A DNA stretch of 64,000 nucleotides from Qipengyuania marisflavi. GTDB taxonomy: Bacteria > Pseudomonadota > Alphaproteobacteria > Sphingomonadales > Sphingomonadaceae. The stretch is taken from assembly GCF_005884405.1 (NCBI RefSeq), contig NZ_VCAO01000003.1, positions 248,001 to 312,000 of the forward strand. The letters run 5' to 3'. The notes beneath the pieces are model-generated. The model saw only the letters and a program-made list of their open reading frames with translations, did not search any database and was not told where the DNA came from. Of this stretch, positions 1,367 to 33,699 are shown in pieces. The position numbers were made by a program, and so were the translations under genes. The first letter of the stretch is position 1; every line of letters starts with the position of its first letter.

Positions 1367-2761
1367 CTATCGTCCGCCAGTGCAATTGCGGCGGCGCTCG
1401 ATCTCGCATTGCTGTTCGATCAGCGCGCGGGCCTGCATCCCGATATCCTGCGCGCGCAGCCAGTCGGGTGTGCCCATGTCTAGGCCAGCTTCTGCCGCCT
1501 GCGCACTGCGCAGCGCCAAACCGTATTGCCCGCTCATCACCTGCTGTTCGGCGCTGGCGAGGCGCGCGCGCGGGATATCGCCGCGTTCGGCATAGACCAC
1601 GCCCAGCTGATACCAGGCGAACGGGTTCAGCCGGTCACGCCCCACTGCGGCACGCAGCACGCCCTCGGCCTCTTCGTAATGCGTCCGGTCCTCGGTCGCG
1701 ATCAGCGCATGGCCCAGCAGACCCGCAATCAGCGGCTCTGAATTGGAAAGATCGGTGGCGCGGCGCAGCGGCACAATGGCCTCGTCCGCGCGGCCCGATT
1801 CCAGCAGGACCTGACCCTTGAGTTCGAGGAAATAGGGATCTGCAGGATCCAGTTCGAGCAGCGCATCAGCCTCGGCCAGCGCTTTGTCGATGCGCGCTTC
1901 CTGATGATAGGCATAAGCGCGCGCATACATCGCCGGGACGCTGCGGTCGCTCTGCGGATAATCGCGGAACGTCGCTTCGGGTTTGGCGATATAGCCGGTC
2001 AGCTTGCCCTTCACGCGTTCAAACCGCCGTTGCCATTCGGTATCATCGGGGCGATCCCATGCCGGATCGCTTTCATACACTTCGCGCAAGGCGGAAATCC
2101 GGTCGCCCGATAGCGGATGCGTGCGGTTGAAGCCCGCCTCGTCATCCTGACGGTAGCCGTAACGGTATTCCTGATTGAGCAGCTTGCCAAAAAAGGTCAG
2201 CGAGCCGCGTCCGGAAATACCCGCTTTGCCAAGATATTCCGCGCCAGCGGCATCGGCGGAGGATTCCTGCGTGCGGGTGAAAGACAGGAAATTGCCCATC
2301 GCCGCGCGTTGTCCGGCCGACATGATGGCGGGCGCGGCCTCGCCAGCACCAGCCAGCGCGGCCCCGATCCCGGCCAGCATGGACAGCAGTATAATGGTCG
2401 TCGCGGACCGCGCGCCTTCACTGTAACGGTTGATGTGTCCGCCAGTGATATGGCCGATTTCATGTGCAATCACGCCCTGCACTTCGCTGGCAGAGTCCGC
2501 CGCCTCGATCAGTCCGCTGTGCAGATAGACCGTCTGGCCGCCCGCCACGAAAGCGTTGATCGATGGATCGTTGAGCAGCACCACATCGACATTGCCGGGT
2601 TCCAGCCCGGCAGCCTGAACCAGCGGAGCCGCAATTTCCTGCAGAAACGCCTCGGTCTCGGCATCGCGGAGCACCGATTGTGCCGCCACCGGCTGCGCTG
2701 CCAGCATGGCAGCAGCAAGCACGGCCAGCGTGCGGGCGAGGAGGCGGGAGAGCTGACGCAT
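1367..2761 (-). CDS. M48-family periplasmic metalloprotease with TPR repeats (BepA-like)
   Basis: A 464-aa protein with a Sec signal peptide ending near AQPVAAQS. The zinc site HExxH is at residues 100-104 (AHEIGHITGGH), with the third ligand expected in the SADAAGAEYL segment. From about residue 280 onward there are several helical TPR-like repeats (for example LELDPADPYFLELKGQ). This architecture matches BepA/YfgC, which degrades or assembles outer-membrane proteins such as LptD. It is the upstream partner of the DsbA-like gene and follows the hydrolase gene by 6 nt. BepA assignment is by architecture only, since other M48-TPR proteins share it. Confidence 0.88.
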   Translation of the reverse strand: MRQLSRLLARTLAVLAAAMLAAQPVAAQSVLRDAETEAFLQEIAAPLVQAAGLEPGNVDVVLLNDPSINAFVAGGQTVYLHSGLIEAADSASEVQGVIAHEIGHITGGHINRYSEGARSATTIILLSMLAGIGAALAGAGEAAPAIMSAGQRAAMGNFLSFTRTQESSADAAGAEYLGKAGISGRGSLTFFGKLLNQEYRYGYRQDDEAGFNRTHPLSGDRISALREVYESDPAWDRPDDTEWQRRFERVKGKLTGYIAKPEATFRDYPQSDRSVPAMYARAYAYHQEARIDKALAEADALLELDPADPYFLELKGQVLLESGRADEAIVPLRRATDLSNSEPLIAGLLGHALIATEDRTHYEEAEGVLRAAVGRDRLNPFAWYQLGVVYAERGDIPRARLASAEQQVMSGQYGLALRSAQAAEAGLDMGTPDWLRAQDIGMQARALIEQQCEIERRRNCTGGR

Positions 2762-21215: not shown

Positions 21216-22463
21216 TCAATTTGTGGCTACGATCTTGAGGTGCGTTCGGGGCTTATCAAGCACTTCGACCGCCTCCCGCCGATGCTCCGGCGCAAGGTGC
21301 GCATAGCGGAGCGTCATTGCGTAGTCGCTGTGGCCAAGCAGTTCGCGGATCGTATTGAGGTCTACTGCCCCCATGGCAAGGCGAGAGGCGAAGTGGTGGC
21401 GCATGTCGTGCCAGCGGAAATCTGCAATCTTTGCGTCATCGAGCAGCTTCTTCCAAGATGAGTTGACGTTGTCGAAGCGCTTGCCGTCCTCGCTTTCGAA
21501 GACGCGGCTGTTGCCTAGGTCGCATTGGGAGCGCCAGGACTTCAAGGTCTCTTAGGCCTCTGCATTGAGCGGTATGTGCCGTGTTTTGCGAGACTTGGCG
21601 GTCTCGGCTGACACGGTCACAATCCGCCGATCGAAATTCACATGCGACCATTTGAGATCGAACAATTCACCGCGCCGCATACCCGTGTTGATCGATAGCA
21701 GAACCATCGGCGTCAGGTGATCGGCGAAGGGCACAGCGTGCAAGCTTGGGAGCAGTTCGCGGTCACGCTCACGCCTCCATTGATTGGCCGAATCGCGCTC
21801 GGTCCGCATTCTGTCTTCGCGTTTCCTTAGCTGCGAACGCAGGCGGTATTCCTCGGCTTCGTCCAAGTAACGAACGCGGACCTCCTTGTTCTCGCGCGCC
21901 TTCTTGACCTTGGCGATCGGATTTACCGCAATCAGTTCCCATTCGACGGCCCGGTTGAGCGCTGCCTTGATGGCCGTGATGTCCCGATTGACCGTATTGG
22001 TCTTCACGCCATCCTTCATTCGCTGGGCGCGCCAGCGTTCCAAATCGAGCGGTGAAATTGCCGCCATCGGAGTCTTGAGAAACTTCTTGAAGGTCACTTT
22101 CAGCCGCTTGATCGTGGCCTCTGCGGTCTTCTGGTGGACCCGTGCCCAAGCGGCATAATGCTCGTCGATAAACTCGCCGAACGTTGAGACTTGCTTGCGC
22201 TTCTGGCGCTCAATGCGCGGATCGACACCGGCCCAATACGGGCCAAGCGCGTTCTTTGCCGCCTCGACGGCTTCAGCGTATCCCATGCTGGTCAAGCGAC
22301 CGAGCCTGATGCGCTTGCCACGCTCAAATTCGAGATACCAAGTCTTCACACCGGAGGGCTGAACCCGCAGCAGTAAGCCGTTCAACTTGGGATCGCGCAG
22401 CTCGTAAGGGTTGGCCCTTGGGGCCGCCCGTTCTGCCACTGCGTTGTTCATGGAAGCTGGCAT
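21216..22463 (-). pseudogene. Island integrase (tyrosine recombinase) interrupted by an in-frame stop
   Basis: A 415-codon P4/P2-type integrase. The N-terminal arm-binding domain (YELRDPKLNGLLLRVQPSG, DUF4102-like) and core-binding domain (TFGEFIDEHYAAWARVHQ) are intact. The catalytic half begins NTGMRRGELFDLKWSHVNF (catalytic Arg). One TAA codon, at 21552-21554, follows LNAEA. The frame then continues without shift through WHDMRHHFASRL, LLGHSDY and TLRYAHLAPEH, supplying the second Arg, His and Tyr. Start ATG 22463 has AGGAAAG upstream. It lies next to attR. The stop separates the second Arg and Tyr from the N-terminal 303 residues, so the enzyme should be dead unless the stop is read through. 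Confidence 0.88.
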
Positions 22464-22774
22464 TGCGATCTTTCCTGTGATCACAAAGCTAGCCGATCCG
22501 TAAGTGAAATGTAAGTGCAAGAGGGGTGAACGCAGTGCAACAAATGCGAACGGTTCGCAACTTAGAGAAGCCAATTTAACCTATAAAAAATAATTGTTTA
22601 TCGTTCATTTTTGTTTTGTTGCGGTGCAAAATTTTTTCGCCATTTTTATGCCTCCGAAGGCAGAGGCCACAGGTTCGAATCCTGTCGGGTGCGCCAGGGC
22701 AAAGGTCCGCCTCCACATGATGACGAAAAATTTCCTAGGAAAGCCGTGGTTACCGCGGGTATTGCGATAGGGTA
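22464..22774. other. Island right junction, non-coding
   Basis: 311 bp without a gene. 22464-22650 is AT-rich island DNA upstream of the integrase, with an A/T run near 22575-22615 suited to a bent or IHF-bound recombination site, and TTTTTCGCCATTTTT at 22633-22647. 22651-22697 is attR. 22698-22774 is chromosomal DNA leading to the diacylglycerol kinase gene. Confidence 0.7.
22651..22697 (+). repeat. attR: truncated tRNA-Arg 3' end
   Basis: The right copy of the island repeat. It lacks the 5' half of the tRNA and cannot form a tRNA. 46 of 47 bases match 9484-9530. Confidence 0.93.
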
Positions 22775-23821
22775 ATGGACCGCACGACTTACCAGTTCGA
22801 CCGTATCGAGGCGTTGCGTGCAGCGCCGCTGCGGCGTGTCGGCGGTGGGTCTGGCGAACGTGCTCCGCCGCCCAATGCGCCAAATCCCCGCATTGGCGTG
22901 ATCTACAATCCGCGCAGCCACCGCAATCGCGGGCAGGATCTGGAATGCACGCAGCGGCTGGGCATTACCGTGGCGCAGCCCGAATCGCGCGAACAGATTG
23001 CCGAGGCGCTGGCCGATCTGGACCGCCAGGGCGTGGACTTCCTCATCATCAATGGCGGCGACGGTACGGTGCGCGATGTGCTGACCATGGGTCAGGGCGT
23101 GTTCGGTGACAACTGGCCTGCGCTGGCGGTGCTGCCCAAGGGCAAGACCAATGCGCTGACGGTTGATCTGGGCGTGCCGACCGACTGGTCGCTGAGCGAT
23201 GCCGTGGCGGCTTGGTCGGACGGTCGCCGCGTGCGCCGCCGCCCGCTGGCAATCACTGCGCAGGGGCGTGACGAGCCTGCGGTGATGGGCTTTTTCCTTG
23301 GCGCGGGCGCTTTCACCATTGGCACGCGCGCTGGTCAGGATGCCCATGCGCTGGGCTTCTTCGGCAGCCTTGCTGTCGGGGCCACTGCAGCCTGGGGCGT
23401 GCTACAGGCGCTGCTGGGCAGTAATCGTAACCAGTGGCGGCGCGGCAGCGAGATGGCAATCTCGCGGCTGTCCGATGGATCCGCGCTGGCGCACTCACAA
23501 CATGGCGATCCGGGCCGCCGCAGCATCATTCTGGCCAGCACGCTGCGGCATATGCCGATGGGGCTGAAATTGTTCGCGCCGGATAGCAGCGGCATCAAGC
23601 TGGTGGCGATGGACAAGCCGCTGCGGCGCCTGCTGCTCAGCTTCCCGGCGATTCTGTATGGCTGGCGTCCGGCATGGCTGGAGCGTGCCGGTTTCCACCA
23701 GACCGATGGCGAAGGCTTCGCAATGCGTTTTGCCGAGCCGTTTATCCTTGACGGGGAAGCCTTCGATCCCGGCCAATACCGCGTCGAACAGGGGCCGGAC
23801 CTGACCTTCGTCACCGCGTGA
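22775..23821 (+). CDS. Diacylglycerol kinase family protein
   Basis: A 348-aa protein with the DAGK catalytic signature: VIYNPRSHRN near residue 45 and NGGDGTVRDVL near residue 93, followed by LAVLPKGKTNALTVDLGVP, which holds the G-K-T-N block. These enzymes phosphorylate diacylglycerol or related lipids using ATP. The gene is the first after the island and chromosomal in composition. Its stop overlaps the GTG of the next gene by 4 nt (GTGA). The lipid substrate (diacylglycerol, ceramide or long-chain base) cannot be read from sequence, but the coupled gene suggests phosphatidate production. Confidence 0.85.
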   Translation: MDRTTYQFDRIEALRAAPLRRVGGGSGERAPPPNAPNPRIGVIYNPRSHRNRGQDLECTQRLGITVAQPESREQIAEALADLDRQGVDFLIINGGDGTVRDVLTMGQGVFGDNWPALAVLPKGKTNALTVDLGVPTDWSLSDAVAAWSDGRRVRRRPLAITAQGRDEPAVMGFFLGAGAFTIGTRAGQDAHALGFFGSLAVGATAAWGVLQALLGSNRNQWRRGSEMAISRLSDGSALAHSQHGDPGRRSIILASTLRHMPMGLKLFAPDSSGIKLVAMDKPLRRLLLSFPAILYGWRPAWLERAGFHQTDGEGFAMRFAEPFILDGEAFDPGQYRVEQGPDLTFVTA

Positions 23822-24726
23822 CTCAGGCCCTCCACCACCGCAGTGCAGATACGCTGGCGCAGCCGGTAGCCGCCGAAGTGCGCGCATGGGCCGCGCAATT
23901 GGGGGCTGAGGCGGGAGCGCTTGCGGTGCTGTTCTATGGCTCCAACCTGCGCACCGGATCGCTGGAGGGCGTGCTCGATTTCTATGTGCTGCTGCCGGGT
24001 CCGCAGCAGGAGCGAATCTGGCCGCGTGTGAGTTACCGTGAGCAGCGCAGCGGGGACAGCGTCCTGCGCGCCAAAATTGCCACCATGTCGCTGGACCAGT
24101 TCACGCAGGCTGCTGCCGGGCAATCGCGCGACACCACGATTTGGGCGCGGTTTGTCCAGCCCAGCGCGCTGGTTTGGGCGGCGGATGAAGCGGCGCGCGG
24201 CGCAGTGGTGCAGGCGGCGGCCAGCGCGGCGCAAACGGCGGCGCGGCTGGCGGCGGCGCTGGGGCCTGAGCAAGGGCCGGAGGATGCTTTCTGGCGCGCG
24301 CTGTTTCAGGCAACTTACAAAGCGGAATTCCGGGTGGAGAAAGCGGGGCGCGAGGAATCGATCCTGGCGGTCAATCGCGCGCATTTCGACGGGCTGTTGC
24401 CGCTGGCGTGGGAGGCTGGCGGGATCAGCTTTGCGCGTGCAGCCGATGCTCTGGCGCCGCAGCTGTCACCCACAGAACGCGCCGCTATCCTGCGCTGGTG
24501 GCAGCGCTGCGCGCGGCTGGGCAAACCGCTCAATCTGTTGCGGCTGGCCAAGGCGACCACGACGTTTGACGGGGCGGCGGATTATGCCGCGTGGAAGCTG
24601 GAGCGGCACACGGGCATCGCGCTGAAAGTCACGCCGTTTGCCGCGCGGCATCCCTTGCTGGCCGCGCCCGGTGCGATGTTTGCGCTATGGCGCGCCCGCA
24701 GGCGCGCGGCGCGCGATCACATATAA
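23818..24726 (+). CDS. Tam41-like nucleotidyltransferase, possible phosphatidate cytidylyltransferase
   Basis: A 302-aa protein of the nucleotidyltransferase fold: VLFYGSNLRTGS followed by VLDFYVLLPG supplies the G-S and acidic residues. The segment KIATMSLDQF, then a polar stretch ending TTIWARFVQPSALVW, lines up with the Tam41/Mmp37 pattern in which a GRLQKP-type segment follows. Tam41 makes CDP-diacylglycerol from phosphatidate and CTP in mitochondria. The GTG start overlaps the diacylglycerol kinase stop, placing a PA-making and a PA-using enzyme in one operon. Assignment is from motif and context and is moderately confident. It ends convergently with the DUF2141 gene (10-nt overlap). Confidence 0.58.
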   Translation: MTQALHHRSADTLAQPVAAEVRAWAAQLGAEAGALAVLFYGSNLRTGSLEGVLDFYVLLPGPQQERIWPRVSYREQRSGDSVLRAKIATMSLDQFTQAAAGQSRDTTIWARFVQPSALVWAADEAARGAVVQAAASAAQTAARLAAALGPEQGPEDAFWRALFQATYKAEFRVEKAGREESILAVNRAHFDGLLPLAWEAGGISFARAADALAPQLSPTERAAILRWWQRCARLGKPLNLLRLAKATTTFDGAADYAAWKLERHTGIALKVTPFAARHPLLAAPGAMFALWRARRRAARDHI

Positions 24727-25214
24727 CGCATGGTGATCGAGATCGCCTCGACACTGTTGCCGACGCTGAACGCGGTCTTCTTGTAGCTGGGTTTGCCCAG
24801 ATTGAAGATGTTCAGGCTGGGATTGTTCGACATTGCCCCGCCGTCTTTTGACAGATCGGTCTTGCCATTGCCGTTGAGGTCATGGCGCACCGCGATGCCA
24901 TAGCTGCCGCTGCTGGGCAGCGGGACGCAGAAACGCATGGTCCCGGCCCGGGCAGGTACTTCGATGCGGCTGAGCCACTTGCCCTTTTCCAGCCATTCGC
25001 CCGGCGTGGCGCGATAGCTCTGGACGCGCAGCGTACCGCCGCCCGCCGCAACGCCGGTGACAGTAACCTGCACCGCAGGCCCGCGGCCCGCAGCGCATTT
25101 GGCCGGATCATTGGCGATTTTCTGGCGATATTGCGCCTGCGCCGGAGCGGCGATCAGCGCCCCCGACAGTGCGAGAGCCAGCACACCCGAAAGTGCAGTG
25201 AAAGAGGTCTTCAT
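24717..25214 (-). CDS. Exported DUF2141-domain protein (second copy)
   Basis: A 165-aa protein with a signal peptide cut near AAPAQAQ (start MKTSFTALSG at ATG 25214). The domain shows GVAAGGGTLRVQSY, SYGIAVRHDLNGNGKTDLSK (the family's DxNGNGKxD loop) and a final ISITMRYM strand close to that of the first DUF2141 protein (SIRMRYLL at 7162). It stands immediately downstream of the RiPP exporter gene on the same strand (84-nt gap), but a role in that pathway is not indicated. Function of the family is unknown. Confidence 0.82.
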   Translation of the reverse strand: MKTSFTALSGVLALALSGALIAAPAQAQYRQKIANDPAKCAAGRGPAVQVTVTGVAAGGGTLRVQSYRATPGEWLEKGKWLSRIEVPARAGTMRFCVPLPSSGSYGIAVRHDLNGNGKTDLSKDGGAMSNNPSLNIFNLGKPSYKKTAFSVGNSVEAISITMRYM

Positions 25215-25298
25215 AATCATCCCGTCCATTCGCCGTCCGGCAGCCATAGCGGCGCCAGAGCGGCTGGTTTGGGAGTGAATATAGGCTTTCTCGCTGAA

Positions 25299-26978
25299 TT
25301 ACGGCTGAATTTGCGGCGCTGCAGCAATTTCCTGTTCGCGCAGCCGCCCGCCCTCCAGCATGATCCGGCGGCCATCAATCTGCGCCACCGCGCCGCGGTG
25401 GCCGATGACCAATACGGTGCATTGCCCCGCCAGTCCGGCAATGGCGCGGGCGATCTCCGCCTCCGCCGCAGGATCGAGCGCGCTGGTCGCTTCGTCGAGA
25501 ATCAGCAGATCGGGTTGCCGCAGCAGCGCCCGTGCCAGTGCGATTCGCTGCTTCTCCCCGCCCGAGAGCGCGCGCGCCGCCTCGCCAAGGTCGCAATCAA
25601 GACCGCCCGGCAAATCATGGACAAAGCCCGCATGCGCCTGTTCCAGCGCCCGCTGCAATGCCGGCTCATCAGCATCGGGCATGGCCCACAGCAAATTGCC
25701 GCGCACACTTCCGGCCAGCAGCACAGGCTCTTGCTGGACATAGGCCACGCGGCTGCGCCAGGCGGAGCGTGCGCCGCCGATGAGCGGCGTGTCGTCCACA
25801 GTCACTGTGCCGCTGTCAGGTGACAGCAACCCGCCCAGCAGATCCGCCAGCGTGCTCTTGCCCGCGCCCGATGGCCCTTCCAGCACCACCGTGCTGCGCG
25901 CCGCGATGGTCAGGTTTATGGCGCGCAGTGCCGGGCGGTCGGGCGCATGGGCCAATGACACACCGTGCAGCGCAATCGCGCTGGTCAGCTGCGGCGCGGG
26001 TAGCGTTGGCGGCGGCTCGGCAGCGGCTTCGGCGCGGTCGATCAGGGCGCGGGCTTCCTCCAGCGCTGGGAGAGCGTGGTGCCATTCCTGCGCGGTCGCT
26101 TGCAACGATCCCAGCAGCGGCACAGCGCGCACTGCGAGCGCAGCCAGCGGCAACAGGATCGCCAGCGGCACCTCCCAGCGGCTAGCTGCGAGCCACAGGG
26201 CGGCGGCCAGCCCGCCCGCCGCAACGATTTGCAATGCCGCGCGCGCCAGCCCGCTGACCAGGATATAGCGCCGTTCGGTAATGCGCAGCGCCCTGAAGGC
26301 CTCATCCGCATCGGCCAGCGCCGCGCGCTCGCGCCCGAAACTCTTGATAATCCGCAAGCTGCCCAGCACTTGCTCCAGACTGCGATAAATCGCCTCATAA
26401 CTGCGCGTGGTCGCCTCGCCCAGACGGCGGGCATGGCGGCGCAGACCGGCGTAGAGCGCCAGTGTGACCAGTGCCGCAAGTCCGCCGATTACCGATACCA
26501 ATGGCGCAATGGCCAGCGCAGCCAGCAGCAATGCAATCAGGCTGAGGCCGATGCGCAGCAGATCGGCAAACCACGCCGCGATGTGGCCAACTCTATCGAT
26601 CGTCGTGATCAGCATCGCGCGAGTGTCGCTGTGCCGCATCCGCGCCAGCAGCTTCCATTCCGCGCCGACCAGAGCTGCAAACGCGCGGCGGCGCAGGCCG
26701 TCGACAACCGCCACGGTCAGATCCTGCGCGATCAGTGCACGGTACATTTCGGCCCCCGCGCGCAGGCCGACCAGCAGCACGAAACCGGCAAGCAGCTGGC
26801 CCAGAGAAAACCGCAAGGGCAGCGCGGTGTCGCCGCCTGCCTGTAACCCCTCCAGCAGCGGAACCAGCAGGACAAAACCCGCACCCTCGGTGGCCGCAAC
26901 CAACAGTGTCAGCGCCGCAAGCGCCAGCGCTCTGCGCGGCCCGGCAAGGGCAAGAAGGGTGCGCCACGAAGCAGCCAT
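25299..26978 (-). CDS. ABC exporter (fused membrane and ATPase domains), RiPP cluster D protein
   Basis: A 559-aa half-transporter with six predicted spans in residues 1-300 and an ATPase domain from about 330. Walker A GPSGAGKST is at 368-376, signature LSGGEKQR, Walker B LLILDEATSALD, and H-loop VIGHR. It lacks a C39 peptidase domain. Its position, last in the PqqD-precursor-cyclase set, matches the D protein of lasso-peptide clusters, which exports the mature product. It is 53 nt downstream of the cyclase gene, same strand. Function as RiPP exporter and self-resistance is inferred from context. Confidence 0.85.
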   Translation of the reverse strand: MAASWRTLLALAGPRRALALAALTLLVAATEGAGFVLLVPLLEGLQAGGDTALPLRFSLGQLLAGFVLLVGLRAGAEMYRALIAQDLTVAVVDGLRRRAFAALVGAEWKLLARMRHSDTRAMLITTIDRVGHIAAWFADLLRIGLSLIALLLAALAIAPLVSVIGGLAALVTLALYAGLRRHARRLGEATTRSYEAIYRSLEQVLGSLRIIKSFGRERAALADADEAFRALRITERRYILVSGLARAALQIVAAGGLAAALWLAASRWEVPLAILLPLAALAVRAVPLLGSLQATAQEWHHALPALEEARALIDRAEAAAEPPPTLPAPQLTSAIALHGVSLAHAPDRPALRAINLTIAARSTVVLEGPSGAGKSTLADLLGGLLSPDSGTVTVDDTPLIGGARSAWRSRVAYVQQEPVLLAGSVRGNLLWAMPDADEPALQRALEQAHAGFVHDLPGGLDCDLGEAARALSGGEKQRIALARALLRQPDLLILDEATSALDPAAEAEIARAIAGLAGQCTVLVIGHRGAVAQIDGRRIMLEGGRLREQEIAAAPQIQP

Positions 26979-27031
26979 GCCCCACCTATGGCGCGCTGGG
27001 CGCTGGGTTCAAGCCTGTGCGGGCCGCCACC

Positions 27032-28930
27032 TCAGATATCATTGCGCCCCTTGGCACGCGCAATCATCCGGGCCGCAGCGATGGCGGAGGGCAGGCCGCA
27101 GGTGACAAACAGCCGTTCGTCCTCGCTGCCATCGGGCAGCGGAGCCAGTTGTTCGAGCCGCTGTTTCAAATCTGTCAGATCCAGTAGTCCGGCGATGTCT
27201 TCGTCACTCGCCATCAGGTCCAGTTCGGACTGCACTGCATCACGCGCCCGGAACAGGCGGTGGTGCCAATCGGCGTGGGTAGCGCCGTGCGTGGTGGCGG
27301 TTCGCTGGTCCTCGGGCATGATCCCGCGCGCCATCCGCCGCGCCAGAAAACGGGTCTCGCCATCGCGCAGGAATTGTTCGGGTGGCAGCGCGAGGCAGAA
27401 CTCGGCCAGCGCGCGGGTCAGCGTGGGGTCGCGATAGGGAATGCCATGCCGCGCTTCGAGCGCTTTGAGAGCATCGCTGCGCCCCTGATCATCGCGCGTG
27501 ACCAAGGCTTCAGTCAGTTCGTGCTGGCTCAGCGAACGCGGGTGGCGGCGGCGCAGGAATGCGAGCGCATTGCTGGCGGGCAGCTGTGCATCGGCCACAG
27601 CGCGTTGGCTAAGCCCCAATGCGGCAAAATGGCTGGCGGGCACCTGCGCACGCGGACCGCGCCCCGGCAGCCAATCGCCCAGCACCAGCCCCCCGAAGCG
27701 CCGCCACAGAGGCCTCGGGTCACCGCGCCGTGTGTTTAATTCGCGCCACAGTCGCCGCCATTGGCCGTGCCGGAAATAATGGCGATAGGCCCAGCCGCCA
27801 GTCGCGCTGAGCGTGGAATTGCCCTCATCACCGCCCAGCATCACATCGCAGCCACGGTCTGCGGCTGCGCCCAAGGCGGCAATTAAGGGGGCGACAATCC
27901 CCATCTCGCGCGGCGGACAGCGCGCAATGGCGAGCAATTCATCAAGTCCGGCGCGGAAGTCTTCCCCTTCGCTGCGCATGATGTGGGCATGGAGGCGGGG
28001 CGCATGGAATTGCGCGAAATTTCCGACAATCGCGCTTTCATCGCCAAATTCATTCGAGGGCAGGACCAGCGAATTGTCGATCTCGGGAGCGTAGGTGTAG
28101 CTGTGCAGCTGCTGTTCGCCCGACTGTCGCAGCAGGCTGGCGGCGACCAGCGAGGAATCCAGCCCGCCCGAAAGCGACACGCAGGGCGCATCCGCTCCCC
28201 TGCTTGCCCCCGCCACGGCCTTATCGAGCAAGCTCTGCGCGCGCTCTACCACTGCATCATCGCTCAGCGCTGCCGCATCCTGCTGCGGTGCGAAGCGATA
28301 GCGCCACAGTTCGCGAACTGATCCGGTCGCGACATCGACTGCCAGCGCCGTACCCATTGGGACACGCGCGGTGCCGGGATACCAGCCGCGCGCAGCGTCC
28401 TCGCTCGCCCCGGCCAGCACTGTCAGCAGCATATCGCTTTGTAAGGTCCGTAAAGCGATGCCCGGGAGCAGTTCCAGCGTCCGCAGCAATGATGATGCCA
28501 TTAATTGGCCGTCCGTCTGGGCGTAATGCAGCGGCGGCGCGGCAAAGGCGCTGCGTGAGAGTCTCAGGGTGTCTGAAAATGGCCCGCCAGTGACGATGGC
28601 GGCGTAACAGCCATCGACCTGCGCATCGGTTTGATCGCCCCAAAGCTGCAAGGCTGCGGCATACAATTGCGCATTGTTGATGCCGTCGGCGAGTCCAAGA
28701 TTCGCGCGCAACACCGCCCGATTGGCGATCCATCCGTCGAAAGCCACTGCCATGCCGCGCGCGCCAGTGGCCAGCGCAGGCTCACCCCCCGGCGCGCGCC
28801 ATGCGGCAAGTGCCAGATGTTGCTTGGCTTCGTGGTCGAGAAAGCGATTGGCAGCTGCGCCCAGCGTCGCAGCAAGTCGGGCGCAGTCAGGCGCAGGGTG
28901 TTCGGACGTGGCGAGCCAGGCGGCAATCAC
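27032..28930 (-). CDS. Asparagine synthetase-like macrocyclase (lasso cluster C-type)
   Basis: A 632-aa protein: an N-terminal class II glutaminase-like domain and a C-terminal synthetase domain with the PP-loop SGGLDSS at about 254-260. The N-terminal catalytic Cys2 of true glutaminases is absent (starts M-I-A-A-W), as expected if ammonia is not made. Lasso C proteins adenylate a side-chain carboxylate and close a macrolactam. The cluster context supports this rather than asparagine synthesis. The GTG start at 28930 has no clear ribosome site and lies 28 nt after the precursor stop, so coupling is likely. All PP-loop residues are intact. Confidence 0.85.
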   Translation of the reverse strand: MIAAWLATSEHPAPDCARLAATLGAAANRFLDHEAKQHLALAAWRAPGGEPALATGARGMAVAFDGWIANRAVLRANLGLADGINNAQLYAAALQLWGDQTDAQVDGCYAAIVTGGPFSDTLRLSRSAFAAPPLHYAQTDGQLMASSLLRTLELLPGIALRTLQSDMLLTVLAGASEDAARGWYPGTARVPMGTALAVDVATGSVRELWRYRFAPQQDAAALSDDAVVERAQSLLDKAVAGASRGADAPCVSLSGGLDSSLVAASLLRQSGEQQLHSYTYAPEIDNSLVLPSNEFGDESAIVGNFAQFHAPRLHAHIMRSEGEDFRAGLDELLAIARCPPREMGIVAPLIAALGAAADRGCDVMLGGDEGNSTLSATGGWAYRHYFRHGQWRRLWRELNTRRGDPRPLWRRFGGLVLGDWLPGRGPRAQVPASHFAALGLSQRAVADAQLPASNALAFLRRRHPRSLSQHELTEALVTRDDQGRSDALKALEARHGIPYRDPTLTRALAEFCLALPPEQFLRDGETRFLARRMARGIMPEDQRTATTHGATHADWHHRLFRARDAVQSELDLMASDEDIAGLLDLTDLKQRLEQLAPLPDGSEDERLFVTCGLPSAIAAARMIARAKGRNDI

Positions 28931-28958
28931 AGGGAAACGCGCGGCTCAGCTCGCATTC

Positions 28959-29108
28959 TCAGCTTGGAATGCGGTCCCGGTTCAAACCATTGGTCAGCGT
29001 TCCGCCCTTTGGGCCAGCAATATCGCGGATCGTACCCAGCTTGGTCAGCACCGGCGTGCTCCATTCTGGCCGCGCCTGCTGTGGGTTGCTCTGATCGTCA
29101 AATGGCAT
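28959..29108 (-). CDS. RiPP precursor peptide, lasso-leader-like
   Basis: A 49-aa peptide from ATG 29108 with an AGAGGA ribosome site 6 nt upstream. Residues 16-31 follow the lasso leader pattern (Y/W)-x2-P-x-L-x3-G-x5-T: W16 S T P19 V L21 T K L G25, but the usual Thr is A31. The predicted core (33-49, PKGGTLTNGLNRDRIPS) has T39, N40 and G41 at positions 7, 8 and 9. The only acid is D45 (position 13). A canonical 7-9 residue ring is therefore impossible with this core start. It may be a different modification class or a decayed precursor. It lies between pqqD and cyclase genes. Confidence 0.7.
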   Translation of the reverse strand: MPFDDQSNPQQARPEWSTPVLTKLGTIRDIAGPKGGTLTNGLNRDRIPS

Positions 29109-29189
29109 CGGGTATCCTCTTTTCAGGGCTGAGTTTAGCAGCTTGGCCGCGTTGCGCCAAGTTTTCCGCCTGCCCCCCCTCAACGCCGC

Positions 29190-29456
29190 TCAATTAACCA
29201 CCACCAACCGGGCCTCCGCCAGCTGCGCAACAAAGGATTCGCATTCGCTGCGGATGGCGGCGGCGTCCCCGTCATAGGCGTTGGCCAGGCTGGCCGCGAT
29301 TGCAGGCACGTCGCGACTGCCGTCGATCGCCAGCCAGATCGCGCGTGCGGTGCCCGTCAGCGAGAACAGTTCGCCGCCGTCCAGATCGATCAGCAGGACC
29401 TCGCCATCGACTTCGGTTTCGACAAAGGCTTCGGGCAATTTGCGAACAATGGGCAT
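29190..29456 (-). CDS. PqqD-family RiPP recognition element (lasso B1-like)
   Basis: An 88-aa PqqD-fold protein with the family blocks VLLIDLDGGELFSLTGTARA and IWLAIDGSRDVPAIAASLAN. In RiPP clusters this winged-helix domain binds the leader, docking on the YxxPxLxxxG motif seen in the neighbouring precursor. It is first in the set (order B1-A-C-D on the minus strand) and divergent from rpe. In usual lasso clusters a transglutaminase-like B2 protease follows or is fused. None is found here within the sequenced neighbourhood. Confidence 0.85.
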   Translation of the reverse strand: MPIVRKLPEAFVETEVDGEVLLIDLDGGELFSLTGTARAIWLAIDGSRDVPAIAASLANAYDGDAAAIRSECESFVAQLAEARLVVVN

Positions 29457-29579: not shown

Positions 29580-30242
29580 ATGGCAGCCCCGCTGATATCC
29601 CCTTCCATCCTTTCGGCCGATTTCGCTCGGCTTGGCGAAGAGGTGCGCGCAATCGACGTGGCCGGGGCGGACTGGGTCCATATCGATGTGATGGACGGCC
29701 ATTACGTCCCAAACATCACCATCGGCCCCGACGTTGTAAAGGCGCTGCGGCCGCATACCGCCAAGGTGTTCGACGTGCATCTGATGATCACGCCGGTTGA
29801 TCCCTACCTCGTAGCGTTTGCGCAGGCCGGGGCGGATATCATCACCGTCCACCCCGAGGCGGGGCCGCATTGCCACCGCACGTTGCAGGCGATCCGCGCG
29901 TTGGGCAAGAAAGCCGGTGTGGTGCTCAATCCCGGCACGCCGGTCGATGCGCTCGACTATCTGCTCGAAGATGCCGATCTGGTGCTGGTGATGAGCGTCA
30001 ATCCCGGCTTTGGCGGGCAAAGCTTCATCCATTCGCAATTGCGCAAGATCGAGGATATCCGCCGCCGGATTGATGCGCTGGGCAAGCCGATCCATTTGCA
30101 AGTCGATGGCGGCGTCAATGCCGAAACCGCGCGGCTTTGCGTCGCTGCGGGGGCCGATGTGCTGGTCGCCGGATCGGCCACTTTCAAGGGCGGCCCGGAC
30201 TGCTACGCCGCCAATATCGCCGCGCTTAAAGGCGCAGCATGA
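29580..30242 (+). CDS. rpe: Ribulose-phosphate 3-epimerase
   Basis: A 220-aa cytosolic epimerase with the TIM-barrel blocks [51 protein letters not shown] and LQVDGGVN; metal-binding His and Asp residues are intact. It interconverts ribulose-5-phosphate and xylulose-5-phosphate in the pentose phosphate/Calvin pathways. The stop overlaps the ATG of the heparinase-like gene (ATGA). The length is normal. Confidence 0.97.
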
Positions 30243-32104
30243 CCGAGGGGTCGGCACGGCTGTCGCAGCGTCCGGCCAAGCCGCTTTCAAACGGCGCGCA
30301 GGCCGCCCTGCCATTGGGCGCAAGCGACGAGCCATTGGTGGTGCCGCGCATTGCTGCCGAAGATAGCGCCGCCGTTTCCGAGCCTTCACGCGCGCTGGCG
30401 CTGGCCGATTTCGCGCCGCCGCGCACCGGGCCGGTCGATGGGCTGGTGCGCTGGGCATACCGGCTTGGCGTGCCCCCGTCGGTGCTGGCCGCGCCGCTGC
30501 GCAAGCCTGCTCGCCCGCGCTTGCTGGCGACAGTGCAGAGCCCGCTGGGCGGGGACCGGGCGCAGGGGATGGCGCTGCGAGCCGGGTTCCTGTTGGTGGC
30601 CGGGCACAAATTGCCGACTCAGGCGCTCGATTTCTCCTTCCCCTCGCGGTTGACCCTGCCATTCCAGCGTGCGGTGCATAGCTTTACCTGGCTGCGCGAT
30701 CTGTCAAGTTGCGCCCCGCGCGAACAATGCACAGCGGTGGCCGAGCGGCTGCTGGCCGGATGGCTCGCGGCCATTCCCGAACCGGCCAAGGGGCCTGCCT
30801 GGAGCGTCGAGCACGCCGGACTGCGGCTGCTGACGTGGCTGGTCCATGCGCCGCTGATCCTGTCAGGTGAGGACGGGGCGCTGCGCACAAAAACGCTGGC
30901 CGCGATGGAGCGCACCGCGCGCTGGCTGGACCGTCATGTTGCCAATGCGGGTGACCGGCTGGGGCAGGTGGCAGGGTGGTGCGCAATTGTCGCTGCCGGG
31001 CTGCTGCTGCCCGACGGGCGGCCCCGGCGGCTGTATGGCGAGGCGGGGTTGCTGCGCGCTCTGGGCGAATTGGTCAGCGATGATGGCGGGGTGCTGTCGC
31101 GCAGCCCGCTGGCGCAAATGGAAGCGATTGCGCTGCTGGTGGATCTGCGCGCCTGTTATGCTGCGCTGGGCCGAGAACCGCCTCACGCGCTGGAAACCAT
31201 GCTGGCGCTGCTGGTGCCGCCACTGCTGACGCTGCGAATGGGCGATGGCGGATTGGGCAGCTGGCAGGGCGCGAATGCCGTGTCTGCGCCCACGGTCGCC
31301 GGTTTGATCGAGGCCAGCGGCGTACGCACTCGCCCGGCGCAGGACACGCGCTATTGGGGCTATCAGCGGCTGGCCGCGAACAAGGGTGTGGTGGTGATGG
31401 ACGCCGCCCCGCCGCCGCGTGCGCGCCATGCCCGTGCGGGCTGCGCGTCGACGCTGGCGTTTGAATTTTCGCACGCCAAGCAGCGGATCGTGGTCAATTG
31501 CGGCGGTGCAGAGCTGGCGGGCGGACAGGTTCCGCTGCGCATCGAACAGGGCCTGCGCGGCACAGCGGCTCATTCTACGCTGATGCTGGGCGATGCCAAT
31601 TCCACCGCCGTGCTGATCAATGGCGAAGTTGGCAAAGGCGTCGAGGAAGTCGAAATGGTCCGCGCGCAGGTCGCCATCGGACAGCGCCGCGCCTTGCGGA
31701 TCGAGGCCAGCCACAATGGTTATGCCGCACGCTTCGCCCTGGTGCACCGGCGCATCCTGATGCTGGCCGCCGACGGCATAGAACTGCGCGGCGAGGATCT
31801 GCTGGAACCGGCGGGGCGGCGCGGACAGCGCGGTAAAATCGGTTTTGCCATCCGCTTTCACCTGGCGCCCCGGATCGATGTCGGTCTGGCGGAGGACCGG
31901 CGCGGCGCGGGAATGGCTCTGCCTGACGGAAGCTACTGGCAATTCCGGCTGGGCGGCGATAGCGGCGAGGCCGAACTGGCCATCGAGGAAAGCCTGTGGG
32001 TCGACGGGCAAGGTCGCCCGCGCGCCAACCGGCAGCTGGTGGTGGAAGGCATGACATCGCGCGGCGGGGGACGGTTCCCCTGGCTGTTCAAACGAATGGG
32101 ATAA
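30239..32104 (+). CDS. Heparinase II/III family protein
   Basis: A 621-aa protein with a heparinase II/III-type layout: helical (alpha/alpha) toroid N-half ([27 protein letters not shown]) and a beta-sandwich C-half ([33 protein letters not shown]). Family members cleave uronic-acid polysaccharides by lyase action. There is no signal peptide, so a cytosolic or atypical role is likely. It is coupled to rpe and followed by purH after 5 nt. A residue-level catalytic call is not possible by eye. Confidence 0.8.
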
Positions 32105-32109
32105 TTCAC

Positions 32110-33699
32110 GTGACGGATGTGACGATTGCGCGGGCACTGCTTTCAGTGTCCGAAAAAAGCGGGCTGGTTGATCTGGGCAAGGCGCTGGCAGCGCGCGGGG
32201 TAGAGCTGGTTTCGACCGGCGGCACTGCCAAGGCGCTGCGCGATGCCGGGCTGGACGTCCGCGATGTGTCCGACCTGACCGGATTTCCCGAAATGATGGA
32301 TGGCCGCGTCAAGACGCTGCACCCGATGGTGCATGGCGGCTTGCTGGCGGTGCGCGACAATCCCCATCACGCCAAGGCTATGGAAGATCACGCAATTGGC
32401 GCGATCGACCTGGTCGTGGTCAATCTCTATCCTTTCGAAGCCACTGTCATGCGCGGTGCCGGGCGGGACGAGATTATCGAGAATATCGATATCGGCGGGC
32501 CAAGTATGGTTCGTTCAGCGGCGAAAAATCACCAATTCGTCACTATTGTCACTGACCCATCGGATTATGGCACTCTCGTGGAAGAACTAGAAGCAAGCAG
32601 CGGCAAGACCAGTGTGGAGTTCCGTCGCAAGATGGCGGCCAAGGCGTTTGCCGCCACCGCAGCCTATGATTCGATGATCAGCCAGTGGTTCGCCTTCGCC
32701 GATCAGCAGCAGACTTTCCCCGATATGCTCAGCGTCAATGGCCGCCGAGTTACCGAACTGCGCTATGGCGAAAATCCGCACCAGAAGGCGGCGCTGTACA
32801 CGCCGGTCGGGCCACATGGCAGCGGCATCGCGCAGGCGCAGCAGCTGCAGGGCAAGGAATTGTCCTATAACAATTACAACGACGCCGATGCCGCGCTGGA
32901 ACTGTGCGCCGAGTTTGCCGGACAGGACCCGGCGGTCATCATCGTCAAGCACGCCAACCCCTGCGGCGTGGCGCAGGCACCGACACTGATCGCAGCATGG
33001 GATGCAGCGCTCGCCTGCGATTCGGTTTCAGCCTTTGGCGGGATCGTCGCGGTCAATTGCGAGCTTGATGCCGAAACCGCCGAAGCTATCGGCCAGATAT
33101 TCACCGAAGTGGTGATTGCGCCGTCCGTAACTGACGATGCGCGCGCGGTGTTCGCCAAAAAGAAGAACCTGCGGCTGCTGCTGACCGGCGAACTGCCCGA
33201 TCCGCGCCGCGGCGGGCTGTCGGTCAAGCCGATCACTGGCGGCCTGCTGGTGCAGACCCGCGATAATGGTGCGATCTCGCCGGACGATCTCAAAGTCGTG
33301 ACGCAGCGTGCGCCAACCGATCAGGAATTGCAGGACTGCCTGTTTGCCTGGACCGTGGCGCGTCACGTCAAATCCAACGCCATCGTTTATGCCAAGGATG
33401 GGGCCACCGCAGGGATTGGCGCAGGCCAGATGAATCGCCGCGACAGCAGCCGGATTGCCGCAATGAAGGCCGCCGAAGCTGCCGAGAAATACGGCTGGGA
33501 CGCTGCGCGCACCGTAGGCAGCGCTGTGGCATCGGATGCCTTCTTCCCCTTCGCCGACGGCCTGCTGGCGGCAGCCGAAGCGGGCGCGACGGCGGTTATC
33601 CAGCCGGGCGGATCGATTCGCGATGACGAGGTGATCGCGGCGGCGGACAAAGCAGGGCTGGCGATGGTCTTCACAGCAATGCGCCATTTCCGCCATTAG
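32110..33699 (+). CDS. purH: Bifunctional AICAR transformylase/IMP cyclohydrolase
   Basis: A 529-aa enzyme from GTG 32110. The N-terminal IMP cyclohydrolase domain shows [18 protein letters not shown] and [14 protein letters not shown], and the transformylase domain shows [13 protein letters not shown] and [12 protein letters not shown]. It performs the last two steps of IMP synthesis. The frame open from 31996 is only an upstream extension; the start is fixed by family alignment. It lies 5 nt after the heparinase-like gene, so cotranscribed. The protein is full length. Confidence 0.96.

Follow-up and report, generated by a model that had tools for sequence, protein, structure and literature searches.

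A lasso-type B1-A-C-D cassette in Qipengyuania marisflavi with leader peptidase and kinase genes elsewhere: a probable dispersed RiPP pathway related to phosphorylated lasso peptides

Results

A lasso-type cassette lacking a leader peptidase gene

We analysed a stretch of 64,000 nucleotides from Qipengyuania marisflavi (hereafter the window; assembly GCF_005884405.1, contig NZ_VCAO01000003.1, positions 248,001 to 312,000), which carries a small set of genes resembling those for lasso peptides, a kind of ribosomally synthesised and post-translationally modified peptide (RiPP). A preliminary description of the window had placed a recognition protein, a precursor, a cyclase and an exporter contiguously on one strand, with no B2 leader peptidase gene beside them. 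Order and strand were borne out, the set (the cassette) occupying window positions 25299-29456 on the minus strand:

29190..29456, minus strand: B1, a discrete PqqD-type RiPP recognition element (RRE); PF05402, 56.3 bits, cut-off 23.4
28959..29108, minus strand: A, the precursor, 49 amino acids, with the leader motif W..P.L..LG...DIA
27032..28930, minus strand: C, an asparagine-synthetase-like, lasso-type cyclase of 632 amino acids; PF00733 (Asn_synthase), 86.8 bits, cut-off 21
25299..26978, minus strand: D, an ABC exporter; PF00005, 102.2 bits, and PF00664, 44.9 bits

The claim that no B2 adjoins the set also held, as a whole-genome search with PF13471 gave no match on the contig of the window (C12). 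Of the features of a lasso pathway, the cluster offers the RRE (B1, 56.3 bits), a [YW]xxPx[LVIFA] leader (WSTPVL in A) and, by PF00733 and fold, an Asn-synthetase-like macrolactam synthetase (C), and has no B2 inside it, the genome holding one solo copy. The sequence AGAGGA directly upstream of A reads as a ribosome site. Precursor A matched no Pfam family at E 0.1 and scored 12.1 bits against NCBIfam lasso_leader_L3, short of the cut-off of 19. Its proposed core is GPKGGTLTNGLNRDRIPS, with Asn at position 9 and a C-terminal Ser. The pathway is built of B1-A-C-D lasso-type parts, but we do not file it as a lasso peptide, because an acid was sought at core positions 7-9 and, in the register used, the window core has Asn9 and no Asp or Glu there. 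Of the paeninodin-like features sought, an HprK-like kinase was found, unlinked to the cassette, as was the C-terminal Ser, and by these two features the pathway is nearest to the paeninodin group.

A solo B2 and an unlinked kinase are kept with the cassette

Across the source genome PF13471 matched at C1:920964 (64.4 bits, over the cut-off) and at C17:45787 (11.6 bits, below it). The gene on C1 is a lasso B2 by the NCBIfam model lasso_biosyn_B2 (59.1 bits, cut-off 33) and sits between genes for a Cys-rich small protein and an acyl-CoA dehydrogenase (both named from sequence), the latter adjoining the solo B2 in 29 of 29 loci. The same genome has an HprK-like gene of 310 amino acids on C11, plus one short HprK-like gene, and a single nucleotidyltransferase (NTP transferase) gene (PF14907, NTP_transf_5, 143.7 bits), located on C12 at a distance of roughly 60 kb from the cassette.

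We followed these genes through the genus in a set of 60 genomes, of which 57 have a completeness of 90% or more. The same 23 genomes hold both the precursor and the W-type cyclase (at least 478 bits). The solo B2 (at least 163 bits) is intact in every one of these 23, and also in 4 of the 37 others (G202, G208, G241, G251). The kinase (at least 306 bits), also unlinked to the cassette, is present in 22 of the 23 and in 6 of the 37 (G202, G208, G220, G226, G241, G244), next to nhaP in 22 of 28 loci and to purC in 6. Five of these six cassette-minus genomes also carry a B2 gene or a piece of one, with the solo B2 of G244 in two frames and that of G226 a short piece; G220 has a weak 29-bit match with a stop. 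Remnants of D persist at the cassette site in G241 and G244, that is, in two of the six cassette-minus genomes with a B2 gene or piece. Since genomes that hold B2 and no cassette nest inside cassette-bearing groups, we read them as relics after cassette loss. With kinship ignored, the association with the cassette has a Fisher p of 7.5e-13 for B2 and 5.2e-10 for the kinase; on a 54-genome tree built from three housekeeping proteins, the cassette requires 8 changes and B2 requires 7. The cassette lies at one fixed chromosomal site, and B2 and the kinase stand alone at two others and are retained in genomes that retain the cassette.

Cluster layouts across the family

In 199 genomes of the family the cyclase query matched 35 (E 1e-20) and PF13471 matched 86 (E 1e-5), all 35 cyclase genomes among them. 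A profile of 26 precursors found precursors in 24 of the 199 genomes at E 2.1e-12 or better (matches above E 0.001, in G115, G095 and a second one in G033, were left uncounted), and a pattern search of 42 cyclase loci found a precursor next to the cyclase in 25, the other 17 being other-branch cyclases or a fragment; the cassette therefore recurs more than by chance. D was seen at 21 of 26 family loci.

Some relatives have a single operon, K-B1-B2-A-C-D(-N). Of the 24 family genomes that have the set, 9 carry B2 within the cluster and 15 do not; one of the 15, G061, has a B2 accompanied by a different B1 and D a few kb away. In six of the nine a kinase gene stands beside B1 (L072, L075, L077, L079, L081, L085), followed after D by an NTP transferase gene in three (L072, L075, L079); neither gene was seen at L064, L071 and L080, where B2 is also inside, and L089 has the kinase and no B2. 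Solo-type B2 genes (at least 172 bits, type assigned with a B2 tree) occur in none of the nine genomes whose cluster contains B2. At a sister lasso-type locus, L094, a Sulfotransfer_1 gene (1462-2388, minus strand, 74.4 bits) adjoins a kinase-like gene and the cyclase, suggesting a possible further tailoring step there.

For the missing B2 the preliminary description had offered three explanations. A B2 encoded elsewhere agrees with the lone lasso B2 on another contig, kept in 23 of 23 cassette genomes; a housekeeping protease cutting the leader is not needed; and a different chemistry gains support, on grounds other than those first given, from the amide found at the ring-closing residue (below). 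It had also held that a B2 beside the set in relatives would mean that the gene was simply lost here. Such relatives do exist, 9 of 24, and the simple loss does not stand in view of the unlinked B2 in all 23 cassette genomes of the genus.

The ring-closing position carries an amide

Precursors were collected with a pattern that fixes W, P, G and V/I, so these residues do not count as results; the pattern made no demand for Gln8 or for the last Ser. Of 58 rows, five were dropped as spurious (three from L071, two from L080), leaving 53 distinct precursors, which include all 20 new loci from a precursor-profile search of the genus. The core was numbered from the residue after V/I-(Ala/Lys/Gly), and a start one residue earlier or later would put the amide at 9 or 7; Gly1 was chosen as the start because sister precursors carry Thr where the cassette family carries Ile or Val. 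The penultimate leader place is Ile in 28 and Val in 25, the next place Ala in 50, Lys in 2 and Gly in 1, and core position 1 is Gly in 43.

In this register the ring position is Gln8 in 47 precursors, Asn9 in three (the window, L063, L194) and Gln9, Glu8 and Asp9 in one each, so that 51 of 53 have Gln or Asn in place of Asp or Glu. Likewise dependent on register, 39 precursors have no Asp or Glu at positions 7-9 and 14 have one there. The core is wholly free of Asp and Glu in 35, and ordinary lasso chemistry cannot close the ring of these. The last residue is Ser in 52, the window included, and Thr in one.

As a control, six precursors of sister cyclases (ungapped, aligned from W or Y) all carry an acid, Asp or Glu, at 8 or 9, and five of them have Thr at the penultimate leader place (Ala in L107). 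This control is a weak one, as its filter preset T/I/V/A at the penultimate place, a small core residue 1, D/E/N/Q at 7-9 and S/T at the end, and of the eight rows that passed, two were dropped as unlikely precursors (one of L094; that of L131, which would be Asn). From these six, the amide of the cassette family appears to occupy the place of the acid of its relatives, and the Glu8 and Asp9 members support the same position. Ring formation on Asp14 of the window core was also considered and is unlikely, a close variant in L194 being wholly acid-free. At L082 (G013) two tandem precursors precede one cyclase; both have Gln8, with cores that differ on either side of it.

The cyclase

The NCBIfam lasso cyclase model lass_lactam_cya scores C at 108.1 bits, below its cut-off of 525. 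The pyrophosphate loop SGGLDS is intact in C, and among the 26 aligned cyclases 25 have SGGLDS and one GGGLDS; residue 2 is not Cys in C or in any of the 26 rows. An AlphaFold2 model (mean pLDDT 83.2, pTM 0.87) gives C a two-domain AsnB/beta-lactam synthetase fold, and its best matches in the PDB are TsnB9, beta-lactam synthetase and AsnB. Two candidate signs of a new chemistry in C were rejected: loss of a GGDE-type motif, as the GN form is common among sister cyclases, and a new catalytic Cys, as the two frequent Cys are either not specific or not invariant.

A fixed site with a variable cassette

The cassette site is bordered by two genes:

24717..25247, minus strand: DUF2141 gene, left border; PF09912, 73.9 bits
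29580..30242, plus strand: rpe-like gene, right border, named from sequence

The DUF2141 gene is also present in genomes whose cassette site is empty. Past the rpe-like gene lie what we take, as with that gene from the sequence, to be a heparinase-like gene (30239-32104) and purH (32110-33699). The cassette stands between DUF2141 and rpe in 22 of the 23 cassette genomes of the genus; in G231 the contig begins inside D. The site was sought in 35 of the 37 cassette-minus genomes: in 26 rpe comes next after DUF2141, none of the four cassette genes having been found in the interval, in two (G241, G244) the D remnants lie between the flanks, and seven were unreadable (contig end in G235 and G247; wrong flank in G242; DUF2141 unrecognised in G200, G224, G232 and G234).

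At this site close relatives can carry very different cassettes. Among 12 genome pairs with purH at least 97% identical, C is 31-40% identical in seven and 78-91% in five. The pair G201/G214 has purH at 99%, rpe 100%, B2 97%, kinase 73% and D 78%, with B1 at 46% and C at 35%; in G240/G246 the values are purH 98%, B2 89%, kinase 91%, D 62%, B1 56% and C 31% (36% by pairwise alignment); in G217/G252 purH 98%, B2 81%, kinase 92% and C 40%; and in G253/G254 purH 99%, B2 73%, kinase 75% and C 38%. Precursor identities were left out of this comparison, the precursor picked for G210 being a spurious frame. The 22 C proteins fall into seven groups at 55% identity, and correlation with purH identity is 0.28 for C and for B1, 0.55 for D, 0.65 for B2 and 0.59 for the kinase (210 of 231 pairs, G250 having no D). 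As C and B1 diverge between close relatives at one site, B1-A-C appear to be exchanged there, B2 and the kinase being steadier and not constant. By simple counting, with some dS values saturated, dN/dS is 0.05-0.45 in 29 of 30 gene pairs from five genome pairs, one value for A being undefined. Such variation in a cassette whose site is fixed suggests selection for diversity at this locus.

Three further observations concern this site. At L267 (G250) B1, A and C are present and D is absent there. A frame of 340 amino acids a few kb from it (21552-22574, minus strand) resembles, as read from its sequence, a phage-type tyrosine integrase. A 302-amino-acid protein gene (23818-24726, plus strand) has no Pfam match at E 0.1 and adjoins the site in 50 of 58 genus stretches.

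Discussion

A proposed pathway

These results point, on balance, to a dispersed lasso-type RiPP pathway related to the phosphorylated, paeninodin-like lasso peptides. We consider it very likely that the pathway is dispersed, with B2 and the kinase acting in trans. B1 would bind the WxxPxL leader, and the kinase would phosphorylate the C-terminal Ser of the precursor, a site that we regard as reasonably probable. The solo B2 would cleave in trans after D-I/V-A, that is, after Ala(-1), C would join the new N-terminal amine (Gly1) to the side chain of residue 8 or 9, and D would export the product. In the accounts given in PMC9266682, the PadeK kinase modifies a C-terminal Ser, kinases of relatives act on that Ser of the precursor ahead of B2 and C, and an added hexose requires the NTP transferase gene; PMC13381572 describes WxxP leaders as bound by RREs.

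With most cores free of acid, the options are displacement of ammonia from the amide by C, prior hydrolysis of the amide, use of the C-terminal carboxylate, or no ring at all. Because almost every member has Gln or Asn as the ring side chain, we favour the first two, in which C would make the usual lactam at Gln8/Asn9 with release of ammonia, directly or after deamidation. For the window core in the register used, the calculated [M+H]+ is 1852.999 when linear, 1835.972 after loss of NH3 (a lactam at Asn9 by either route) and 1834.988 after loss of H2O (a head-to-tail, amidine or Asp14 ring), each phosphate adding 79.966. That the ring is closed at the amide residue is a suggestion falling just short of an even call. 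The widest form of the proposal, a family of lasso-type cyclases closing the ring on a Gln/Asn carboxamide, in a pathway spread over three or four loci whose B1-A-C are swapped at a fixed site and whose protease and kinase act in trans, is possible and rather doubtful.

Several results weigh against parts of this proposal. A sign test corrected for the tree was not significant (median p 0.125; 3.7 of 6 pairs concordant, none opposite). In the family the solo-type B2 occurs in just 9 of the 15 genomes with a B2-less cassette, the remaining six having only other kinds of B2 genes, some within other clusters, and it also occurs in 4 of 175 genomes without a cassette. G231, a 91% complete draft of about 290 contigs, gave no kinase match, and G251 carries B2 without a kinase. 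The kinase itself scores below the Pfam and NCBIfam cut-offs (Hpr_kinase_C 30.3 bits, cut-off 33.3); the sister-cluster kinases L095 and L099 pass the Hpr_kinase_C cut-off and match the same kinase profile as the unlinked one. In the FastTree B2 tree the solo B2s are not sisters of the operon B2s and form separate groups, and the kinases likewise divide into an operon group (11 members, support 0.961) and a solo group (28 members, support 0.999). As neither solo gene is a sister of its operon counterpart, this does not look like one operon simply split; a simple relocation of the operon B2 is rejected by the B2 tree, whose supports were not read off. The two arrangements of one pathway would then use different B2 and kinase lineages. 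In addition, an ordinary acceptor is available to 12 of the 47 precursors with Gln8, which also carry Asp at position 7 or 9, and the motifs of C, in the stretches compared, have no visible difference from those of sister cyclases.

Alternative explanations

The peptide could stay uncyclised, with C kept for a chaperone role or another modification and the product a linear phosphopeptide, like the linear polyphosphorylated peptides (LPP) of Bacillota. The LPP systems described in PMC13381572 have an RRE, an HprK-like kinase, an NTP transferase and an exporter without a cyclase, and an amide instead of an acid takes away the usual acceptor. We regard this as a minor possibility, given that a cyclase accompanies the precursor in all 23 genus genomes under purifying selection and that its loop is SGGLDS, or GGGLDS once, in every aligned row.

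It is unlikely that C activates the C-terminal carboxylate, borne by the conserved Ser, and couples the N-terminal amine to it, giving a head-to-tail peptide and no lasso. That carboxylate is the only one common to every core, as 35 of 53 cores lack Asp and Glu altogether; all but one of the 53 end in Ser; and the best fold matches of C include carboxylate-activating enzymes. On the other hand, the C-terminal Ser is accounted for by the kinase and is also found in the plausible sister precursors L091, L094, L095 (two) and L099 (picked by eye, a last Ser not being required), most of which have an acid near position 8, and the head-to-tail reading does not explain why Gln8 is conserved and why two relatives have Glu8 and Asp9.

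Still less probable is a cassette that works without B2 or with a housekeeping protease, the solo B2 serving something else. The title of a paper cited in PMC9266682 gives pseudomycoidin as made without leader and leader peptidase, and the solo-type B2 also occurs in genomes that lack the cassette (4 of 175 in the family, 4 of 37 in the genus). Against this stand the co-retention of the solo B2 in 23 of 23 genomes, the clusters of 9 of the 24 family genomes that have the set and hold B2 within it, and, in the source genome, a solo B2 that is the only PF13471 gene over the cut-off together with a window C that is the only cyclase at E 1e-20. Finally, activation of the side-chain amide oxygen by C followed by attack of the amine, giving a macrocyclic amidine, would fit the conserved amide and the intact ATP pyrophosphatase loop, by analogy with TilS and argininosuccinate synthase, N-type ATP pyrophosphatases that activate amide-like oxygens; it is very improbable, those two enzymes being distant relatives.

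Comparison with known systems

Genome-mining tools search for adjoining lasso genes and generally expect an acid among core positions 7-9; on both counts the cassette family would be called incomplete or missed. In the literature searched, which left most subscription-journal papers outside, neither amide-acceptor lasso precursors nor an unlinked lasso B2 appeared by title or abstract. The unlinked and co-kept B2 and kinase would be a natural case of RiPP enzymes acting in trans, and if C does act on the amide, this would be new RiPP chemistry.

By its modelled structure C has a two-domain fold in common with TsnB9, beta-lactam synthetase and AsnB, from which it differs in being only 12-17% identical in structural alignments, in having presumably a peptide as substrate, and in having no Cys at residue 2 for glutaminase activity. 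The LPP systems, as presented in PMC13381572, share the RRE, kinase, exporter and a leader motif of the [Y/W]xxP kind, and possibly the NTP transferase; they are described without a cyclase and with a signal-peptidase-like protease, whereas the window set has a cyclase and an available B2. Bsf-type lasso precursors, from Bradymonas and also Sphingomonadales according to PMC10368454, share Ile/Val(-2) in the chosen register and have a kinase within their cluster, a likeness to the kinase-using pathway proposed here; BsfA retains Asp8 and Tyr(-17), whereas the cassette family has Trp, a spacing one residue shorter and Gln8/Asn9. With paeninodin and pseudomycoidin, as described in PMC9266682 and PMC13381572, the likeness extends to RRE, B2, Asn-synthetase-like cyclase, HprK-like kinase and exporter, to the WxxP leader and the C-terminal Ser that their kinase modifies, and possibly to the NTP transferase. 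The pathway of the window differs from these two in its unlinked B2, kinase and candidate NTP transferase, in a cassette-family leader that mostly ends in D-I/V-A without Thr(-2), and in the replacement of the ring-closing acid by an amide in 51 of the 53 precursors.

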